Source: Acidobacteriota bacterium
GTDB taxonomy: Bacteria; Acidobacteriota; Vicinamibacteria; Vicinamibacterales; UBA2999
NCBI GenBank assembly: GCA_030650395.1
Contig: JAUSDY010000016.1
Span: forward strand, 62,001 to 126,000
Reading direction: 5' to 3'
DNA: 64,000 nt
The notes beneath the pieces are model-generated. The model was not told the origin of the DNA. It ran no database searches and worked only from the letters and a program-made list of their open reading frames with translations. This document shows positions 2,549 through 62,839 of the stretch, piece by piece. The translations under genes were made by a program, and so were the position numbers. Position 1 is the first letter of the stretch, and every line of letters starts with the position of its first letter.

Positions 2549-3052
2549 ATGCCCAGCCCGGTTGGCCACGCGCTCGGAGGAGCCATCGTCGGCTTTCTCC
2601 TGGAGCGTCGGCGCACTCCCCGCGCCGTCCCTCTTAGTGCTTTTGCCGTGGTGGCAATACTTCCCGACATCGATTTCCTGTGGGGCCGGCACAACATGGA
2701 GACGCACAGCCTCGGGGCCGCCGTCCTGGCGGGCCTCGCGATGCTGATGTGGACTCGAGGAAAAAACCCGCGCCTGGCCCTGGCGGTGACGCTGGCGTGG
2801 TCGACCCACGTTCTGTTCGACTGGCTGGGGTCCGACGACACGCCGCCGCTCGGCGTCATGGCATTCTGGCCGCTGACCTCGAAGTTCTATTTCGCGGATG
2901 CGTTTGTCTTCGAGGCGATCTCGCGGCGCTACTGGCTGTCGAACTTCGTGCCGCACAACGCCTGGGCGGTCGCGAAAGAGATCTTGATTCTCGGACCGAT
3001 CGTCGCGATCCTCTGGTTCAGAAAGGTTCGGAAGGGTTCTGAAAGGTTCTGA
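2549..3052 (+). CDS. DUF457/YdjM-type membrane-bound metal-dependent hydrolase
   Basis: 167 residues from ATG 2549; MPSPVGHALGGA is the typical family N-terminus, so the upstream in-frame ATGs are not used. Conserved acidic/His motifs are GHALGG, LPDIDFLWG, METHSLG and STHVLFDWLGSD, which match the YdjM/DUF457 pattern of predicted metal-dependent hydrolases in the inner membrane. Several hydrophobic helices lie between them. The substrate is unknown. The last residues (WFRKVRKGSERF) are encoded by the first units of the 10-mer mirror repeat at 3015-3114, so the repeat has grown into the 3' end of the gene. Confidence 0.8.
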   Translation: MPSPVGHALGGAIVGFLLERRRTPRAVPLSAFAVVAILPDIDFLWGRHNMETHSLGAAVLAGLAMLMWTRGKNPRLALAVTLAWSTHVLFDWLGSDDTPPLGVMAFWPLTSKFYFADAFVFEAISRRYWLSNFVPHNAWAVAKEILILGPIVAILWFRKVRKGSERF

Positions 3053-3114
3053 AAGGTTCTGAAAGGTTCGAACCCATCTGAACCACTCTGAACCCTTCAG
3101 AACCCTTCAGAACC
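3015..3114. repeat. Mirror-symmetric 10-mer array (10 units)
   Basis: Ten contiguous 10-bp units. Five run forward: GGTTCAGAAA, GGTTCGGAAG, then GGTTCTGAAA three times. A self-complementary unit GGTTCGAACC (3065-3074) follows. Four units then run as the reverse complement: CATCTGAACC, ACTCTGAACC and CTTCAGAACC twice. The whole 100 bp can fold as one long hairpin. It covers the 3' end of the plus-strand hydrolase gene and stops 4 bp before the stop codon of the convergent thiolase gene, so it may serve as a shared terminator. Confidence 0.95.
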
Positions 3115-4626: not shown

Positions 4627-4683
4627 GATCGGGGATCGGGGATCAGCGCATGCGCCGATCCCCGATCCCTGACCCCTGATCCC
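4627..4683. repeat. GATCGGG heptamer repeat with mirror half
   Basis: Two GATCGGG heptamers are followed by GATCA, a self-complementary GCGCATGCGC core, then CGATCCC twice and the variants TGACCCC and TGATCCC. It is another tandem repeat that turns into its own reverse complement. It fills the divergent intergenic space between the DciA-like gene and the FG-GAP gene. Confidence 0.85.
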
Positions 4684-5877: not shown

Positions 5878-6464
5878 TTCTCGCGAGCCGATCGCCGCGC
5901 CGCGCTGAATTATTGAGCGCGGCCGGCTTCGTATTCGACGTGCACGCGGTGGAGATCGACGAGACGCCACGGCCCGGGGAGCCGGCTGCGGGGTACGTTG
6001 AGCGCCTCGCGATCGAAAAAGCGCAGGCAGCGTTCAAGGAGTTGATCGACAAACCTAAAGGTTTGTCGCCACAAGAAGGTTTGTCGCCAAAAGTTCTGTT
6101 CGTGTTGGGCGCCGACACCACCGTGGTGCTCGACGGCCGCATTCTCGGCAAGCCTGAGGATCGCGCCGACGCGATCGCCATGCTCAAGGCGCTCAGCGGC
6201 CGCGCGCACGACGTAATCACCGGCGTCGCCATCGTCAGCGCCGCCGGCGTCCGATCCGGCGTCGAACACACGCGCGTCTGGTTCGCCGCCGTTACAGACG
6301 AAGACATTCGCCAGTACGTCGACAGCGGCCAGCCCATGGATAAGGCCGGCGCCTATGGGATCCAGGGGCTTGCATCGCGTTTTATCCCGAGAATCGAAGG
6401 CTCGTACACCAACGTTGTTGGGTTGCCGGTGACGCTGGTCTCTAGTATCCTTAGAGGGGAGTAG
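5850..6464 (+). CDS. maf: Maf-like nucleoside-triphosphate pyrophosphatase
   Basis: 204 residues. Maf proteins hydrolyse non-canonical or modified NTPs (for example dTTP, UTP, m5UTP) to NMP plus PPi in the cytoplasm. Visible motifs are IILASRSPRRAELL (phosphate binding), VEIDETPRPGE, AIEKAQ, VLGADTTVVLDGRILGKP (catalytic Asp) and KAGAYGIQG. No ATG precedes the conserved N-terminus. The best start is GTG 5850 (VREPASKII), overlapping the FG-GAP gene by 28 nt; a rare start nearer IILA cannot be excluded. A palindromic element (6047-6088) is inserted in frame. It adds DKPKGLSPQEGLSP in the loop just before the GADT motif, at about residues 66-79, a site that should tolerate insertion. Confidence 0.9.
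   Translation: MVREPASKIILASRSPRRAELLSAAGFVFDVHAVEIDETPRPGEPAAGYVERLAIEKAQAAFKELIDKPKGLSPQEGLSPKVLFVLGADTTVVLDGRILGKPEDRADAIAMLKALSGRAHDVITGVAIVSAAGVRSGVEHTRVWFAAVTDEDIRQYVDSGQPMDKAGAYGIQGLASRFIPRIEGSYTNVVGLPVTLVSSILRGE
6047..6088. repeat. Family A palindrome in frame inside maf
   Basis: Perfect arm CGACAAACC, loop TAAA, arm GGTTTGTCG (6047-6068). The right half is then repeated after exactly 18 bp as GGTTTGTCGCC (6078-6088). Read in the Maf frame it gives DKPKGLSP followed by QEGLSP. The other forward frame, CGA CAA ACC TAA, would stop translation, so the frame used is an open one. Confidence 0.9.
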
Positions 6465-9391: not shown

Positions 9392-9996
9392 TGGCCCGGA
9401 CCGCAGCCGCGGACGACAAACCTAAAGGTTTGTCGCCACGTGAGGGTTTGTCGCCACGCGAAGGTTTGTCGCCACTTGAAGAACCGTTCCTGCGGCCCTG
9501 GCAGTTTTTCCTGCTCGGCGGCATGCTGGCCGCCACCGCCACAGTGATCGTCGCCACCGGGCAATCGCCGGCCAACATCATCATCCTCAGCCTGACCGTC
9601 GTCGCGGTGAGCTTCGTGGGCCTTGGCGCGTATCGCATGCTGGCCCCGCTGGTCCAGGCCGACGTCGAGACCCCAGCCTTGATCGGTGGCCGCACGCGTA
9701 TTGCGCTGGAGCGTGAGAAGGCGCTGGTGTTGCGCTCGCTCAAAGAGCTCGAGTTCGATTTTGCGATGGGGAAGATGTCGAAGGCCGACTTCGACGAGAT
9801 GGCTGGCCGGCTTCGCCGCCGCGCCGTCGGTTTGATGCGCCAGCTCGACGCCGGTGGCGGGTATCGCGAGCAAATCGAAAAGGAAGTGGCGAAGCGGCTC
9901 GGCCAACCACTCGTTGAAGGTTTGTCCGCTTGCGAATGCGGCACGACCAACGATCCCGACGCGCGGTTCTGCAAGTCCTGCGGAGCGAAGCTATGA
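9391..9996 (+). CDS. CcmI-like membrane protein with C-terminal zinc ribbon
   Basis: 201 residues. It begins at ATG 9391, overlapping the ccmF stop (TGATG). An N-terminal repeat-derived segment DKPKGLSPREGLSPREGLSPLE (written in pieces: DKPKGLSP, REGLSP, REGLSP) precedes two membrane helices. Next comes a charged helical region resembling the CcmI/DUF-type 'EREKALVLRSLKELEFD' arm, and last a four-Cys zinc ribbon CECGTTNDPDARFCKSCGAK. Position in the ccm operon suggests a role in apocytochrome handling. No experimentally studied homologue is known to me. The repeat peptide comes from the palindrome at 9414-9480. Confidence 0.7.
   Translation: MARTAAADDKPKGLSPREGLSPREGLSPLEEPFLRPWQFFLLGGMLAATATVIVATGQSPANIIILSLTVVAVSFVGLGAYRMLAPLVQADVETPALIGGRTRIALEREKALVLRSLKELEFDFAMGKMSKADFDEMAGRLRRRAVGLMRQLDAGGGYREQIEKEVAKRLGQPLVEGLSACECGTTNDPDARFCKSCGAKL
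9414..9480. repeat. Family A palindrome extended by 18-bp tandem units
   Basis: Perfect palindrome 9414-9435 (arms CGACAAACC/GGTTTGTCG, loop TAAA). From 9427 onward the right half is iterated as three exact-length 18-bp units, each starting GGTTTGTCGCCAC (9427-9444, 9445-9462, 9463-9480). Because 18 is a multiple of three, the expansion keeps the frame and yields GLSPRE, GLSPRE, GLSPLE. A lone half site, GGTTTGTCCGC, recurs near 9919 in the same gene. Confidence 0.92.
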
Positions 9997-17430: not shown

Positions 17431-17471
17431 AAGGCCCTGCGGATGAAGCGCGAGCCAACGCGAATCGAACA

Positions 17472-17496
17472 GGAGACCAGGAGATGATCTCCTGTG
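17472..17496. repeat. GGAGA 8-mer repeat with hairpin before the anti-sigma gene
   Basis: GGAGACCA and GGAGATGA are tandem 8-bp units followed by TCTCCTG, which pairs back with CAGGAGA. The same repeat class with a longer hairpin is at 62800-62839, directly upstream of the Ser/Thr kinase gene. It lies in the leader of the anti-sigma gene, about 15 nt before its ATG. Confidence 0.7.
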
Positions 17497-27937: not shown

Positions 27938-27957
27938 CGCGGAACTAAAGTTCCGCG
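27938..27957. repeat. Family B palindrome between convergent genes
   Basis: Identical to 1290-1309: arm CGCGGAAC, loop TAAA, arm GTTCCGCG, with the tail CTACGG. It sits 16 bp after the SGNH gene and 11 bp before the convergent membrane-protein stop, where a bidirectional terminator would be expected. Confidence 0.88.
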
Positions 27958-50415: not shown

Positions 50416-52346
50416 CAACGATCGACACGAGCGTGGCAGAACGCCTGCACGGTCGCAGCCTGGCGTGGCGCCTCGGGGCGAGCACGACGGCCGCGATCGG
50501 CATCGTGCTGCTGGCCTGGGCGATCTCGATCGATTTCGTGAAGGCGTCGAACGGCGGCTTTTTTGGCGATGCCGCAACCTATTACACGCTCGGCCACAGC
50601 CTCGCGACCGACCTGGATTTCGAGTACCAGCGCGACGACCTCGCCCGCGTGTGGGAGGAGTTTCCGACCGGGCCCGAAGGCCTCTTCCTCAAGCGCGGCG
50701 CCGACTCGCAGTTGTACTACGCGAAGGCCTACATCTATCCGTTGTTGGCGGCGCCGTTCATCCGGCTGTTCGGCACGAACGGATTCCTGGTGTTCCATGC
50801 GCTGCTGATGACGTTGTGTTTCCTGTGCGCGTACTCGTTCCTTTGCGCCCGCAGTCATCCAGTCAGCGCGCTCATCTTCGCCTGCGCATTTCTGTTCGTC
50901 TCGCTGGTGCCGATCTACATGGTGCAGATCGGGCCGGACTTCTTCATCTTCGCGATCGTGCTGTGTGGCTATTACTTCTGGTGCTACAAGGAAGTCGCGG
51001 GGCCCGCGCCCACTGGGCCCAGGCTGTCGTGGCGGACGCGCTGGCTGCTCGCGCCGCAATCAGACATGGTCGCGGCGGTCCTGCTTGGCATCGGCACGTT
51101 TGCGAAGCCGACGAACATCCTGTTGATCGCGCCGCTGCTCGTGTCGGCGGCGCTGCGCCACCAGTGGCGGCGCGCATTCACGATCAGCGCTGTCTTTGGC
51201 GTGGTCGTCGCGGCGCTGTTCGCCCTGAACATCGCCGTCACCGGCGATTGGAATTACCAGGGAGGCGAACGCAAGACGTTTTACAGCCGCGATAGCACCG
51301 GCTTCAAGGGTGGCTTCCCGTATCAGGACGAGACCTCCACCTTCGACACGGTCGGTCTGGGCAGGGTGGGCGGCGGTTCATTCAACGTCCTGTTCACCCG
51401 GGACGCGCTGCTCGAAGTGTTTCCGCACAACCTCGGCTACTTTCTGCTCGGGCGCCATACCGGCTTCGCGATCTATTTCTTCCCGGCGCTGATGGCGATC
51501 ATCATGTTCCTCGGCGCGACGCGCGACCGCGCGATCTGGCAGTGGCTCACGCTCGCTGTGGGAGTCGGCACGGCGGTAGTGCTCCTGCTGTACATGCCGT
51601 TCACGTGGTCCGGCGGCGGTGGGCCGGTGGGCAATCGATATTTCCTCGGCACCTACGGCGTGTTCCTGTTTCTGGTGCCGCCGATGCAGACGGCGGTGAG
51701 CGGATTGCTGGCGATGGCAATCAGCGGGCTCTTTGTTGCACCGATTGCCTCCAACCCGTTCTTCGCCACGAGAAATCCCGCCGAGCACAGTAAGACCGGG
51801 TTGTTCCGCTGGCTGCCGACCGAGTTGACGATGGTCAACGACCTGCCAGTCAACGTGCTTCCCACGCGCACGCGCCAGCCGCTTGGCGGCACGCCGCCGG
51901 TGTTTGCGTATTTCATCGACGACAACGTCTACAACCGTGAGGTCGACGCGTTCTGGGTGAAAGGGAAGTCGACCGCCGACATCCTGCTGCGTGCGCCGAT
52001 CGCGCCTGAAACGCAGGCCGCGGGCGTGCAAGAGGCGCGGTCGCTGCGCATCGACAAGCTGACCATCATTCTGGAGACCGGACCGCGGCCCAACCGCGTC
52101 ACGATCGACACGGGCAGCGAGCGTCGCGTGGTGGACATGGCGGCGGGCTCGCAGCAGACCTTCGACGTCGCGATGACCCACGGCGTGCCCTACAAGTACC
52201 ACCCGGATCTCCCGACCAATTACGTCTACATGTTGTCGATCTCGTCGTCGACCGGCTTCGTGCCGATGTTCGAGAACGGCGCGGCCGACAGCCGCTTCCT
52301 TGGCGTGATGGTGCGCGTCATCCCGCACTACGCGGAGTCACAGTAG
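50412..52346 (+). CDS. Polytopic membrane protein, GT-C-like
   Basis: 644 residues with about ten membrane helices and a large C-terminal domain outside the membrane (PNRVTIDTGSERRVVDMAAGSQQTFDVAM). The first loop GGFFGDAATYYTLGHSLATDLDFEYQRDDLARV (given in pieces: GDAATYYTLGHS, DLDFEYQRDDL) is acidic as in GT-C families. It probably transfers a lipid-linked sugar or belongs to O-antigen-type assembly. It starts at ATG 50412 within the previous stop and ends sharing a base with the next start. Confidence 0.68.
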   Translation: MTTIDTSVAERLHGRSLAWRLGASTTAAIGIVLLAWAISIDFVKASNGGFFGDAATYYTLGHSLATDLDFEYQRDDLARVWEEFPTGPEGLFLKRGADSQLYYAKAYIYPLLAAPFIRLFGTNGFLVFHALLMTLCFLCAYSFLCARSHPVSALIFACAFLFVSLVPIYMVQIGPDFFIFAIVLCGYYFWCYKEVAGPAPTGPRLSWRTRWLLAPQSDMVAAVLLGIGTFAKPTNILLIAPLLVSAALRHQWRRAFTISAVFGVVVAALFALNIAVTGDWNYQGGERKTFYSRDSTGFKGGFPYQDETSTFDTVGLGRVGGGSFNVLFTRDALLEVFPHNLGYFLLGRHTGFAIYFFPALMAIIMFLGATRDRAIWQWLTLAVGVGTAVVLLLYMPFTWSGGGGPVGNRYFLGTYGVFLFLVPPMQTAVSGLLAMAISGLFVAPIASNPFFATRNPAEHSKTGLFRWLPTELTMVNDLPVNVLPTRTRQPLGGTPPVFAYFIDDNVYNREVDAFWVKGKSTADILLRAPIAPETQAAGVQEARSLRIDKLTIILETGPRPNRVTIDTGSERRVVDMAAGSQQTFDVAMTHGVPYKYHPDLPTNYVYMLSISSSTGFVPMFENGAADSRFLGVMVRVIPHYAESQ

Positions 52347-53383
52347 TGGCGACGGTCGCGGTCGTCACCTCGAGTCCGCCGTTCGCCGAAGGCGGCCACC
52401 TGGTGATGGCGCGCGAGCTGGTGCGCGCGCTCAACGAGGAAGGGCATCAGGCCGGGCTCGTCGTGACGCCGCAGAACCGGTTTGGCCAACAGGCGAGCGC
52501 GTATCTGGCCGCGTGGTGCACGGATGTCGGCCTTGCCCACGAAGAGCGCAAGGTCGATCAGGTGATCAGCCTGCGGTTCCCCGGCTACGCGGTGCAGCAC
52601 CCCAATCACGTGTTGTGGCTCAACCATCGCATGCGCGAGTACTACGACCTGTGGGATCAGTTCAGCTCGCACCTGTCGTGGAAGGGCAAGATCAAGGAGC
52701 GCACCCGCCGCGCCATCATCCATGGTGTCGACGGCTACCTGCTGTCGAAGATGAAACGGCGCTTCGTGATTTCAGGGACCGTGCAGGCGCGGCTGCGGCG
52801 TTTCGGCGGCATTCAGTCCGACGTGCTGTATCCGCCGCCTCCTGAACGCGACTATCGCCACGACACCTACGGCGACTATCTGTTCGGCGTCTCGCGGCTG
52901 TCGCCGCTCAAGCGTTTCGATCTGGTGCTGCGCGCGCTGGCGGAGCCGATGGCGGCGAGCATCAAGTGCGTGATCGCCGGCGAGGGCGCCGAGCTCGATC
53001 GGCTGATCAAGCTGCGCAGCCACCTCGAACTGAACCATCGTGTGCAGTTCGTCGGCCGGCTCGACGAGGCGGGCTTGATCGACCACCTGGCGCGATGCCG
53101 TGCCGTAATCTTTCCGCCGTTCAACGAAGACTACGGCTTCGTGACGGTCGAGGCCTTCATGTGCGGCAAGCCGGTGATCACCTGCCATGACAGCGGCGGG
53201 CCATCCGAGCTGGTCAAGAACGATGAGAGCGGATTCGTCACCGATCCCACGCCAGAGGCGTTAGCGGTCGCGATGCGGCGGTTAATGGATGATCGGAATC
53301 TCGCCATGCGGATGGGCGAGACTGGTCGCGCGGCTGCTTCGCAGATGACGTGGTCGGGGGCCATCCAGAAACTGCTTCTCTGA
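52346..53383 (+). CDS. GT4 glycosyltransferase
   Basis: 345 residues. N-terminal VAVVTSSPPFAEGGHLVMARELVRAL is the GT4-type loop. The donor half has LFGVSRLSPLKRFDLVLRAL, IAGEGAELDRLIKL, VQFVGRLDEAGLIDHLARCRAVIFPPFNEDYGFVTVEAFMCGKPVITCHDSGGPSELV (in pieces: YGFVTVEAFMCGKPVI, CHDSGGPSELV), typical of a retaining GT4. GTG 52346 overlaps the previous stop. It is the last gene of the operon; the 13-mer mirror repeat follows immediately. Confidence 0.9.
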   Translation: MATVAVVTSSPPFAEGGHLVMARELVRALNEEGHQAGLVVTPQNRFGQQASAYLAAWCTDVGLAHEERKVDQVISLRFPGYAVQHPNHVLWLNHRMREYYDLWDQFSSHLSWKGKIKERTRRAIIHGVDGYLLSKMKRRFVISGTVQARLRRFGGIQSDVLYPPPPERDYRHDTYGDYLFGVSRLSPLKRFDLVLRALAEPMAASIKCVIAGEGAELDRLIKLRSHLELNHRVQFVGRLDEAGLIDHLARCRAVIFPPFNEDYGFVTVEAFMCGKPVITCHDSGGPSELVKNDESGFVTDPTPEALAVAMRRLMDDRNLAMRMGETGRAAASQMTWSGAIQKLLL

Positions 53384-53390
53384 TCTCAGC

Positions 53391-53520
53391 GGTTCCGCAC
53401 GAGGGTTCCAGACGAGGGTTCCATCCGAGGGTGCCGCACGAGGGTTCGTCGAACCTCCGTCAAGAACCTCCGTGAGGAACCTCCGTGAGGAACGTCCGTG
53501 CGGAACCTCCGTGAGGAACC
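53391..53520. repeat. Mirror-symmetric 13-mer array (10 units)
   Basis: Exactly ten 13-bp units. Four run forward: GGTTCCGCACGAG, GGTTCCAGACGAG, GGTTCCATCCGAG, GGTGCCGCACGAG. A self-complementary central unit GGTTCGTCGAACC (53443-53455) follows. Five units then run in reverse orientation: TCCGTCAAGAACC, TCCGTGAGGAACC, TCCGTGAGGAACG, TCCGTGCGGAACC, TCCGTGAGGAACC. It can fold into a hairpin with a stem of about 60 bp. It starts seven bp after the glycosyltransferase stop and ends 32 bp before the ttcA start. The arms share the GGTTC...GAACC theme of the 10-mer array at 3015-3114. Confidence 0.96.
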
Positions 53521-53552
53521 TCTCCGTCCACCTGTTAGACTGTCGAAGGTTC

Positions 53553-54413
53553 ATGGGGTATCGCTCACCACTCGAAACACGCCTGGCCAAGAAGACCACC
53601 AAGGCCATCGTCGACTTCAACCTGATTGAAGACGGCGATCGGGTGATGGTTGGTCTCTCTGGCGGCAAAGACAGCTGGGCGCTGATCCAGATCCTCGATG
53701 TGCTGCGCAAGCGGGCGCCGATCAAGTTTTCGATCGTGGCCGTGAACGTCGACTCCGGTTACGAGGGCTATCAGCACAAGCAGGTGGCCGACGCCTGCCT
53801 GGCGCGAGGCTGGGAGTTTTACAGCGAGCACACCAATATTGGCGCGGTGATTGACGACAAGCTCGAAAGCGACGAGATGCCGTGCTCGCTGTGCGCGCGG
53901 CTGCGGCGCGGCGTGCTCTATCGGCTGGCGACCGAAACGGGCGCGACGAAGATCGCGCTCGGCCACCATCTCGACGACTTTGTCGAAACGGTCTTGCTGA
54001 ACCTCTTCTTCGCCGGCGCGCTCAAGGCGATGCCGGCGCGCCTCAACTCCGATAGCGGCGCGCACGTCGTCATTCGCCCGCTCGTCTATGTCACGGAGGC
54101 CGAGGCGCGCGCGTACTGCAAGGAAAGCGAGTTGCCGATCATCGGCTGCTGCTGCCCGGCCTGCGGCGATCTCAGCCTGCAACGGCAGCGCGTCAAGCGG
54201 CTGCTCACCGAGCTCGAGCGCGAGCACCCCGCCGTCAAGTCGTCGATGATCAAGGCGCTCAGCAACGTGATGCCGCGCCATCTGCTCGACCGCCGGCTGA
54301 ATCCGGTCGGCGAGATTCGCAAGGCAATCTCGACGCAGCTCGAAGAGTTTGACGATGTCCCAGCGGATGTGCCGTTGATCCCATTGATGCTCTCCAGGCC
54401 GCAGACGACGTGA
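53553..54413 (+). CDS. ttcA: TtcA-like tRNA thiolase
   Basis: 286 residues. The PP-loop is [18 protein letters not shown] (ATP pyrophosphatase). [19 protein letters not shown] and the Cys set [16 protein letters not shown] plus [13 protein letters not shown] fit the TtcA/TuA family, whose [4Fe-4S]-bound Cys residues form 2-thiocytidine at tRNA position 32. It starts at ATG 53553. A TAGACT 11 nt upstream suggests its own short-leader promoter, after the 13-mer array. It is coupled to dtd by a GTGA overlap. Confidence 0.88.
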
Positions 54414-62796: not shown

Positions 62797-62799
62797 ACA

Positions 62800-62839
62800 G
62801 GAGATCAGGAGACGAGGAGTATAGAATCTCCTCGTCTCC
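62800..62839. repeat. GGAGA 8-mer repeat with 12-bp hairpin before the kinase
   Basis: GGAGATCA, GGAGACGA, GGAG (8-bp spacing), then the loop TATAGAAT and the exact reverse complement CTCCTCGTCTCC (62828-62839). The perfect 12-bp stem carries a -10-like TATAGA in its loop. It ends five bp before the kinase ATG, so it may block the start or act as an attenuator. The same repeat class precedes the anti-sigma gene at 17472. Confidence 0.85.

Follow-up and report, generated by a model that had tools for sequence, protein, structure and literature searches.

Mirror-ordered arrays of a 13-mer are dispersed through an acidobacterial genome, and inverted tandem arrays are associated with S23 genes

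Short tandem repeats that face each other in gene gaps have been described in Xanthomonas, where arrays of the heptamer GGGAATC are dispersed between genes, lie near or overlap stop codons and commonly hold four units (PMC4692102). Facing inverted array pairs number 70 in Xcc and 75 in Xac, and the arrays differ in length and sequence between related species; the portion of that paper examined describes no link to S23 genes. S23 (PF05635, '23S rRNA-intervening sequence protein') is encoded by a small four-helix-bundle gene known from the intervening sequences (IVSs) of 23S rRNA in Coxiella and Leptospira, in which a hairpin stem carries the S23 gene in its loop (PMC4990558). In Coxiella, tandem heptamers precede the S23 reading frame, the IVS is excised by RNase III and its S23 is probably not produced in vivo; the function of S23 is unknown (PMC4990558). 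Species-specific short tandem arrays that occupy many gaps are also found as the STRR heptamers of cyanobacteria and the TAACTGA arrays of Beggiatoaceae, the latter one-directional and placed before start codons (PMC4679880). REP/BIME sequences, with their RAYT transposase, are dispersed, foldable extragenic palindromes. The foldback (FB) transposons of eukaryotes have inverted terminal arms built from short tandem repeats, some with a central segment and some lacking one, and the literature also records an FB element that yielded a satellite.

We analysed a window, that is the whole stretch of 64,000 nucleotides, from the soil acidobacterium G000, which has a 5.41-Mb genome in 180 contigs. 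The first-pass annotation had described a block between a glycan operon and ttcA as ten 13-mers, four forward, a palindromic centre and five reverse, in perfect register. Direct reading of positions 53391-53520 confirmed the ten units in one register with no slip, and the two arms were independently detected by TRF with scores of 72 and 116. The view that this is not an ordinary tandem repeat was supported, as was its position between a glycosyltransferase gene and ttcA. The centre is self-complementary, as claimed, with the exception of its middle base. The features of the locus are as follows.

52346..53383, + strand: glycosyltransferase gene (GT1-type, PF00534), ending at the array; from gene calls and a profile match
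53384..53390, + strand: 7-bp gap from the glycosyltransferase TGA to the array; direct reading
53391..53442, + strand: forward arm, four 13-mers of the GGTTCCNNACGAG type; direct reading and TRF
53443..53455, no strand: centre GGTTCGTCGAACC, the hairpin tip, self-complementary bar the middle base; folding and direct reading
53456..53520, - strand: reverse arm, five reverse-complement 13-mers; direct reading and TRF
53532..53542, + strand: CTGTTAGACTG, resembling a -10 element ahead of ttcA, just outside the array; similarity to the congener G001
53553..54413, + strand: ttcA-like gene for a PP-loop ATPase (PF01171), whose ATG at 53553 is conserved in congeners; profile match

The forward arm reads GGTTCCGCACGAG, GGTTCCAGACGAG, GGTTCCATCCGAG and GGTGCCGCACGAG, and the reverse arm TCCGTCAAGAACC, TCCGTGAGGAACC, TCCGTGAGGAACG, TCCGTGCGGAACC and again TCCGTGAGGAACC, each unit being exactly 13 bp long. 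The array ends 32 bp before the conserved ttcA ATG. The stretch CTGTTAGACTG, whose counterpart in G001 is CTGCTAGACTG, is a putative promoter core; a consensus scan found no sigma-70 promoter. Genes were called with a simple codon model, so that stops are exact and starts approximate; a GTG start at 53472 within the array is spurious.

The RNA of the 130-base block folded at -69.9 kcal/mol on the + strand and -68.0 on the - strand. Shuffled sequences averaged about -49 and about -51, respectively (z -5.4 and -4.5), and none of 200 shuffles was equally stable, so the folding check proposed earlier bore out a strong hairpin. The stem is interrupted, however, and is not the perfect helix of about 60 bp that had been expected. 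The units abut without spacers, which sets the block apart from a CRISPR array, and an Rfam search gave no match at gathering score. An assembly error, which had been named as a way to overturn the observation, was excluded because dozens of independent copies occur in two separately assembled genomes.

The array had been presented as a singular object, but it has many relatives. With the 130-bp block as a query, 93 BLAST matches were found among the 40 places scored, dispersed and in many cases on both strands, and the genome holds 127 exact matches to a double unit. From stretches of the genome we catalogued at least 59 arrays of the unit GGTTCCtCACGag: 30 two-armed, 17 forward only and 12 reverse only. 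All of the two-armed copies run forward-then-reverse and none runs reverse-then-forward (binomial p = 2e-9), and in almost all of them the core is short. Units are spaced by exactly 13 bp in 311 of 320 cases, four being the commonest count per arm. Variation is concentrated at positions 7, 8, 12 and 13, and the blocks GGTTC and CACG are near-invariant across separate arrays; the conservation of GGTTC is overstated because units were partly selected on it. Among 162 genomes of the order, the 13-mer pair pattern was found in G000 (127) and G001 (35) only. The search of the genome and its relatives that had been suggested thus revealed a dispersed 13-mer family in these two, with other mirror arrays in congeners. 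A spread across phyla was rejected, since the apparent matches in Streptomyces, Halomonas, Novosphingobium, Planctomycetaceae and Gemmatimonadaceae amount to single loci; viral contigs held no 13-mer arrays. The title of the MAG VFZG01 (L127), Acidimicrobiia, looks wrong because its matches and their contig positions are identical to those of the acidobacterial congener G003.

The Xanthomonas arrays are the closest published parallel (PMC4692102). In both cases short tandem units are dispersed between genes and form facing pairs; the Xanthomonas unit is a G-quadruplex-capable heptamer, whereas here the 13-mer is accompanied by many other unit families. The inverted ends of the window array form a stem, as those of an IVS do, and sibling loci in G000 likewise hold S23 between their arms. 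However, an IVS sits in rRNA with its S23 gene, whereas the window copy is intergenic, lacks S23 and has a stem made wholly of tandem 13-mers. We did not class it as an IVS because it was tested for both an rRNA location and an S23 reading frame and has neither. FB transposons share the tandem-repeat inverted arms, but here the host is bacterial, the element short, and there is no transposase and no recognised target-site duplication. Neither copy number nor position links the arrays to REP/RAYT: the single Y1 transposase of G000 is not close to a 13-mer, and in G007 13 of them occur without a 13-mer family. For a MITE or IS derivative, inspection of the flanks by eye gave no target-site duplication, and the gaps of relatives diverge too much for an empty site to be recognised. 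A check for an autonomous partner showed that elements with S23 between a forward and a reverse array share the ends; S23 is not a known transposase. The array also differs from an intrinsic terminator in that its GC stem has no T-tract, which is found at 2 of 118 edges in the 13-mer family, and the terminator reading of the first-pass annotation is unsupported for this type. We did not class the window array as a REP, a MITE or an intrinsic terminator either; its architecture is like that of the Xanthomonas arrays and of the IVS stem.

Mirror arrays of other units were sought with a detector that is blind to the unit and gave 0 detections in 319 shuffled gaps. Of the 27 gaps in the window 2 held one, as did 5 of the 49 gaps in randomly chosen stretches of the genome (together 7/76, about 9%, from small samples), compared with 0 of 17 gaps of E. 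coli and 0 of 19 of a distant member of the order, again small samples. A further 28 arrays, built on units of 7 to 14 bp other than the 13-mer, were recorded in G000; in 25 of these the left arm is richer in purines than the right (p = 3e-5). The heptamer AGTTGAA has 178 matches in G000 at no more than one mismatch; among the arms listed, 17 pairs run forward-then-reverse and 0 reverse-then-forward. The 14-mer GGTTCNANCACGNN (GGTTCAA.CACG..) has 91 matches in G004, 24 in G008 and 0 in G000 and G001, and is the counterpart of the 13-mer in the former two genomes, the GGTTC and CACG blocks being common to both units. At the ttcA gap G001 carries a different, AGGAGATC-like mirror array, and G008 has a short one-way repeat. 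The gap on C94 is occupied in congeners by a 7-mer mirror, a one-way 7-mer, a 14-mer mirror, two 14-mers, a 20-mer array or a short remnant. From the different units at shared gaps and the split of the 13-mer and 14-mer between genomes we conclude that each species amplifies its own unit, and the mirror arrays that occupy gene gaps within one bacterial genus can differ from species to species. A literature search on repeats in Acidobacteria or Vicinamibacter returned nothing on point.

The 13-mer and 14-mer families share two conserved blocks separated by variable positions, which could indicate binding sites for a nucleoid, regulatory or partition protein that reads GGTTC and CACG in DNA or RNA. 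We consider this very improbable, since, within this genome as well as in sister species, equivalent gaps are filled by unit families of quite different sequence, and no conserved set of target genes was found.

The window itself contains further repeats. At 3015-3114 a second mirror array, made of 10-mers (GGTTCTGAAA 5.5 times, then GAACCCTTCA 4.5 times), overlaps a gene end; its unit type also flanks an S23 gene on contig C1 of G000. A heptamer mirror array, GATCGGG / CCCGATC with a GCGCATGCGC core, lies in a divergent gap at 4627-4683, and short mirror arrays of the AGGAGATC type, the type at the ttcA gap of G001, are at 62799-62839 and 17471-17494.

The units within an arm differ by a mean Hamming distance of 2.13, those of opposite arms by 2.97 and those of other elements by 2.75. 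The pairing energy was -52.6 kcal/mol for an element's own arms and -54.3 for swapped arms (permutation p = 0.94), and the stem gave no indication of compensatory change. We conclude from the opposite-arm distances and the pairing energies that the arms expand separately. Copying of one arm into the other in a palindrome in place, one form that the uncharacterised duplication mechanism suggested earlier could take, was rejected, since opposite arms are no more alike than the arms of different elements. Arms that diversify independently, are homogeneous within themselves and change in exact 13-bp steps fit a neutral minisatellite, in which a chance palindrome was expanded by slippage without a trans-acting factor and spread by ordinary recombination. 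The over-representation of heptamers in many bacteria, for which slippage has been proposed (PMC4692102), points the same way. Nevertheless, we hold such a neutral origin to be improbable. It does not account for one unit at about 50 dispersed sites, for units peculiar to each species, or for an order of 30:0 in the 13-mer and 17:0 in the AGTTGAA arrays, though either order would fold; the near-invariance of the GGTTC and CACG blocks across arrays (GGTTC being favoured by unit selection) and the association with S23 also argue against it.

Arrays also flank unrelated genes, encoding a GNAT acetyltransferase, a methyltransferase-like and a kinase-like protein. The idea that a gene between a forward and a reverse array forms a mobile cassette was partly dropped because the enclosed genes are often native neighbours. 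The enclosed gene is inverted relative to congeners at 2 of 3 testable loci, L158 (5369-6013, kinase-like) and L062 (6419-7111, GNAT), as if the inverted arms had been recombination sites; it is not at L151. At L151 (2219-2270) and L158 (5962-6013) the reverse array enters the coding sequence and provides a new C-terminus and stop (LREEPS and LRGEPS).

The edges of the arrays, other families included, are mostly 0-12 bp from stop codons. Among convergent gaps, 8 of 11 that bear an array have no more than 10 bp of other sequence, compared with 14 of 71 array-free ones (p = 0.0008). When all families were taken together, mirror arrays were enriched in convergent gaps (14/43 versus 42/276, p = 0.009) and scarcer, though not significantly so, in divergent ones (p = 0.08); the 13-mer arrays alone had no clear preference for a gap type. 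This placement, the strong folding of the window array on both strands and the transcripts that begin or end in the Xanthomonas repeats more often than in controls (PMC4692102) would suit a selected, bidirectional structure at transcript 3' ends. Such a structure, a hairpin-assisted or Rho-linked terminator or a block to exonucleases, would have evolved in place from whatever sequence filled the role. We take it as a serious rival, which could hold alongside a reading based on S23 elements, but think it rather unlikely. The arms show neither T-tracts at their edges nor compensatory pairing, some of the 13-mer arrays occupy divergent gaps, which need no terminator, and the occurrence of one unit at dozens of sites in one genome is left unexplained.

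In the Acidobacteria sequence that we examined, three distinct S23 genes scored above the Pfam cut-off, and all three sit between a forward and a reverse array.

C116 (L084), G000: S23 between 13-mer arrays, a sibling of the window array
C1, G000: S23 between 10-mer arrays, the unit type of window 3015-3114
G004: S23 between 14-mer arrays

Among comparison genes from unbiased Acidobacteria stretches, 7 of 760 passed the same array test. Two of the three loci had been reached by array-linked searches, and we therefore tested an independent set of 18 S23 loci on plasmids of Cyanobacteriota, Bacteroidota, Gemmatimonadota and Pseudomonadota. A tandem array together with inverted matches between the flanks was found at 11 of the 18 loci, which are partly non-independent (several are from Nostocales), and at 0 of 82 control genes, which come from three plasmids only (p = 2e-10). 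A tandem array was present on at least one side in 17; several loci are one-armed and one is without an array. Examples are AGTAGGG / CCCTACT in Nostoc and GGAGGGCA in Gemmatirosa. At the Azospirillum locus the flanks were recognised by eye as 23S rRNA, and by its sequence this locus is apparently a classical IVS. No S23 relatives were found in viral contigs by a single-protein query, nor S23 in phage records, and a literature search for S23 with tandem repeats gave nothing on point.

On balance, we favour the explanation that the array in the window represents a 'solo' form, lacking the gene, of a dispersed family of IVS-like hairpin elements, whose complete form has S23 in the loop. Evidence against it includes the missing S23 gene of the window copy, the small number of S23 genes met in Acidobacteria, the unrelated genes that arrays also flank, the plasmid S23 loci with one arm or none, and the probable lack of S23 production in Coxiella. 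The two stem arms of such an element would be short tandem arrays in inverted order, and the complete element would carry the S23 four-helix-bundle gene between them as rRNA IVSs do. Solo arrays may derive from S23-bearing elements or have spread with their help; this mobility and the function of S23 are inferred, and neither excision nor a new insertion was observed. If transcribed, the hairpin 7 nt past the upstream stop codon would be a tolerated or useful structure at the mRNA 3' end and may be a substrate of RNase III, as IVSs are. Replication slippage would then lengthen or shorten its arms 13 bp at a time, a step size that would preserve the pairing register.

A broader version, which we put forward tentatively and with some doubt, is that S23/IVP serves as the dedicated factor of widespread, undescribed hairpin elements with tandem-repeat arms, which have colonised gene gaps and occasionally rRNA. 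The many solo mirror arrays, that of the window and those of Xanthomonas among them, might then be non-autonomous copies. The association of S23 with arrays joins two puzzles, the function of S23 (PMC4990558) and the question of how dispersed mirror and heptamer arrays arose in bacteria. It predicts S23 genes inside inverted tandem arrays across phyla, and that array-rich genomes hold or once held S23; X. campestris, with its facing GGGAATC arrays, has the S23 protein XCC0516, whose structure is solved (PDB 2gsc). The S23 link was absent from the first-pass annotation, as were the dispersed family, the differing arrays of congeners at the ttcA gap and the Xanthomonas parallel. The finding of S23 genes between forward and reverse arrays is new here and suggests a class of repeat element that has mostly escaped notice.

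S23 genes with tandem arrays were also seen in cyanobacterial CRISPR operons, between cas10 and cmr3 once and between cas6 and cas4 twice (L361, L367 and L368). Within the window, another dispersed palindrome is an identical 20-bp hairpin, CGCGGAACTAAAGTTCCGCG, that adjoins stop codons at 1290-1309 and 27938-27957. Tandem units of 18 bp (AAGGTTTGTCGCCA..) are present at 6058-6093 and 9425-9481, and several further gaps in the window contain related GGTTTGTCG palindromes.
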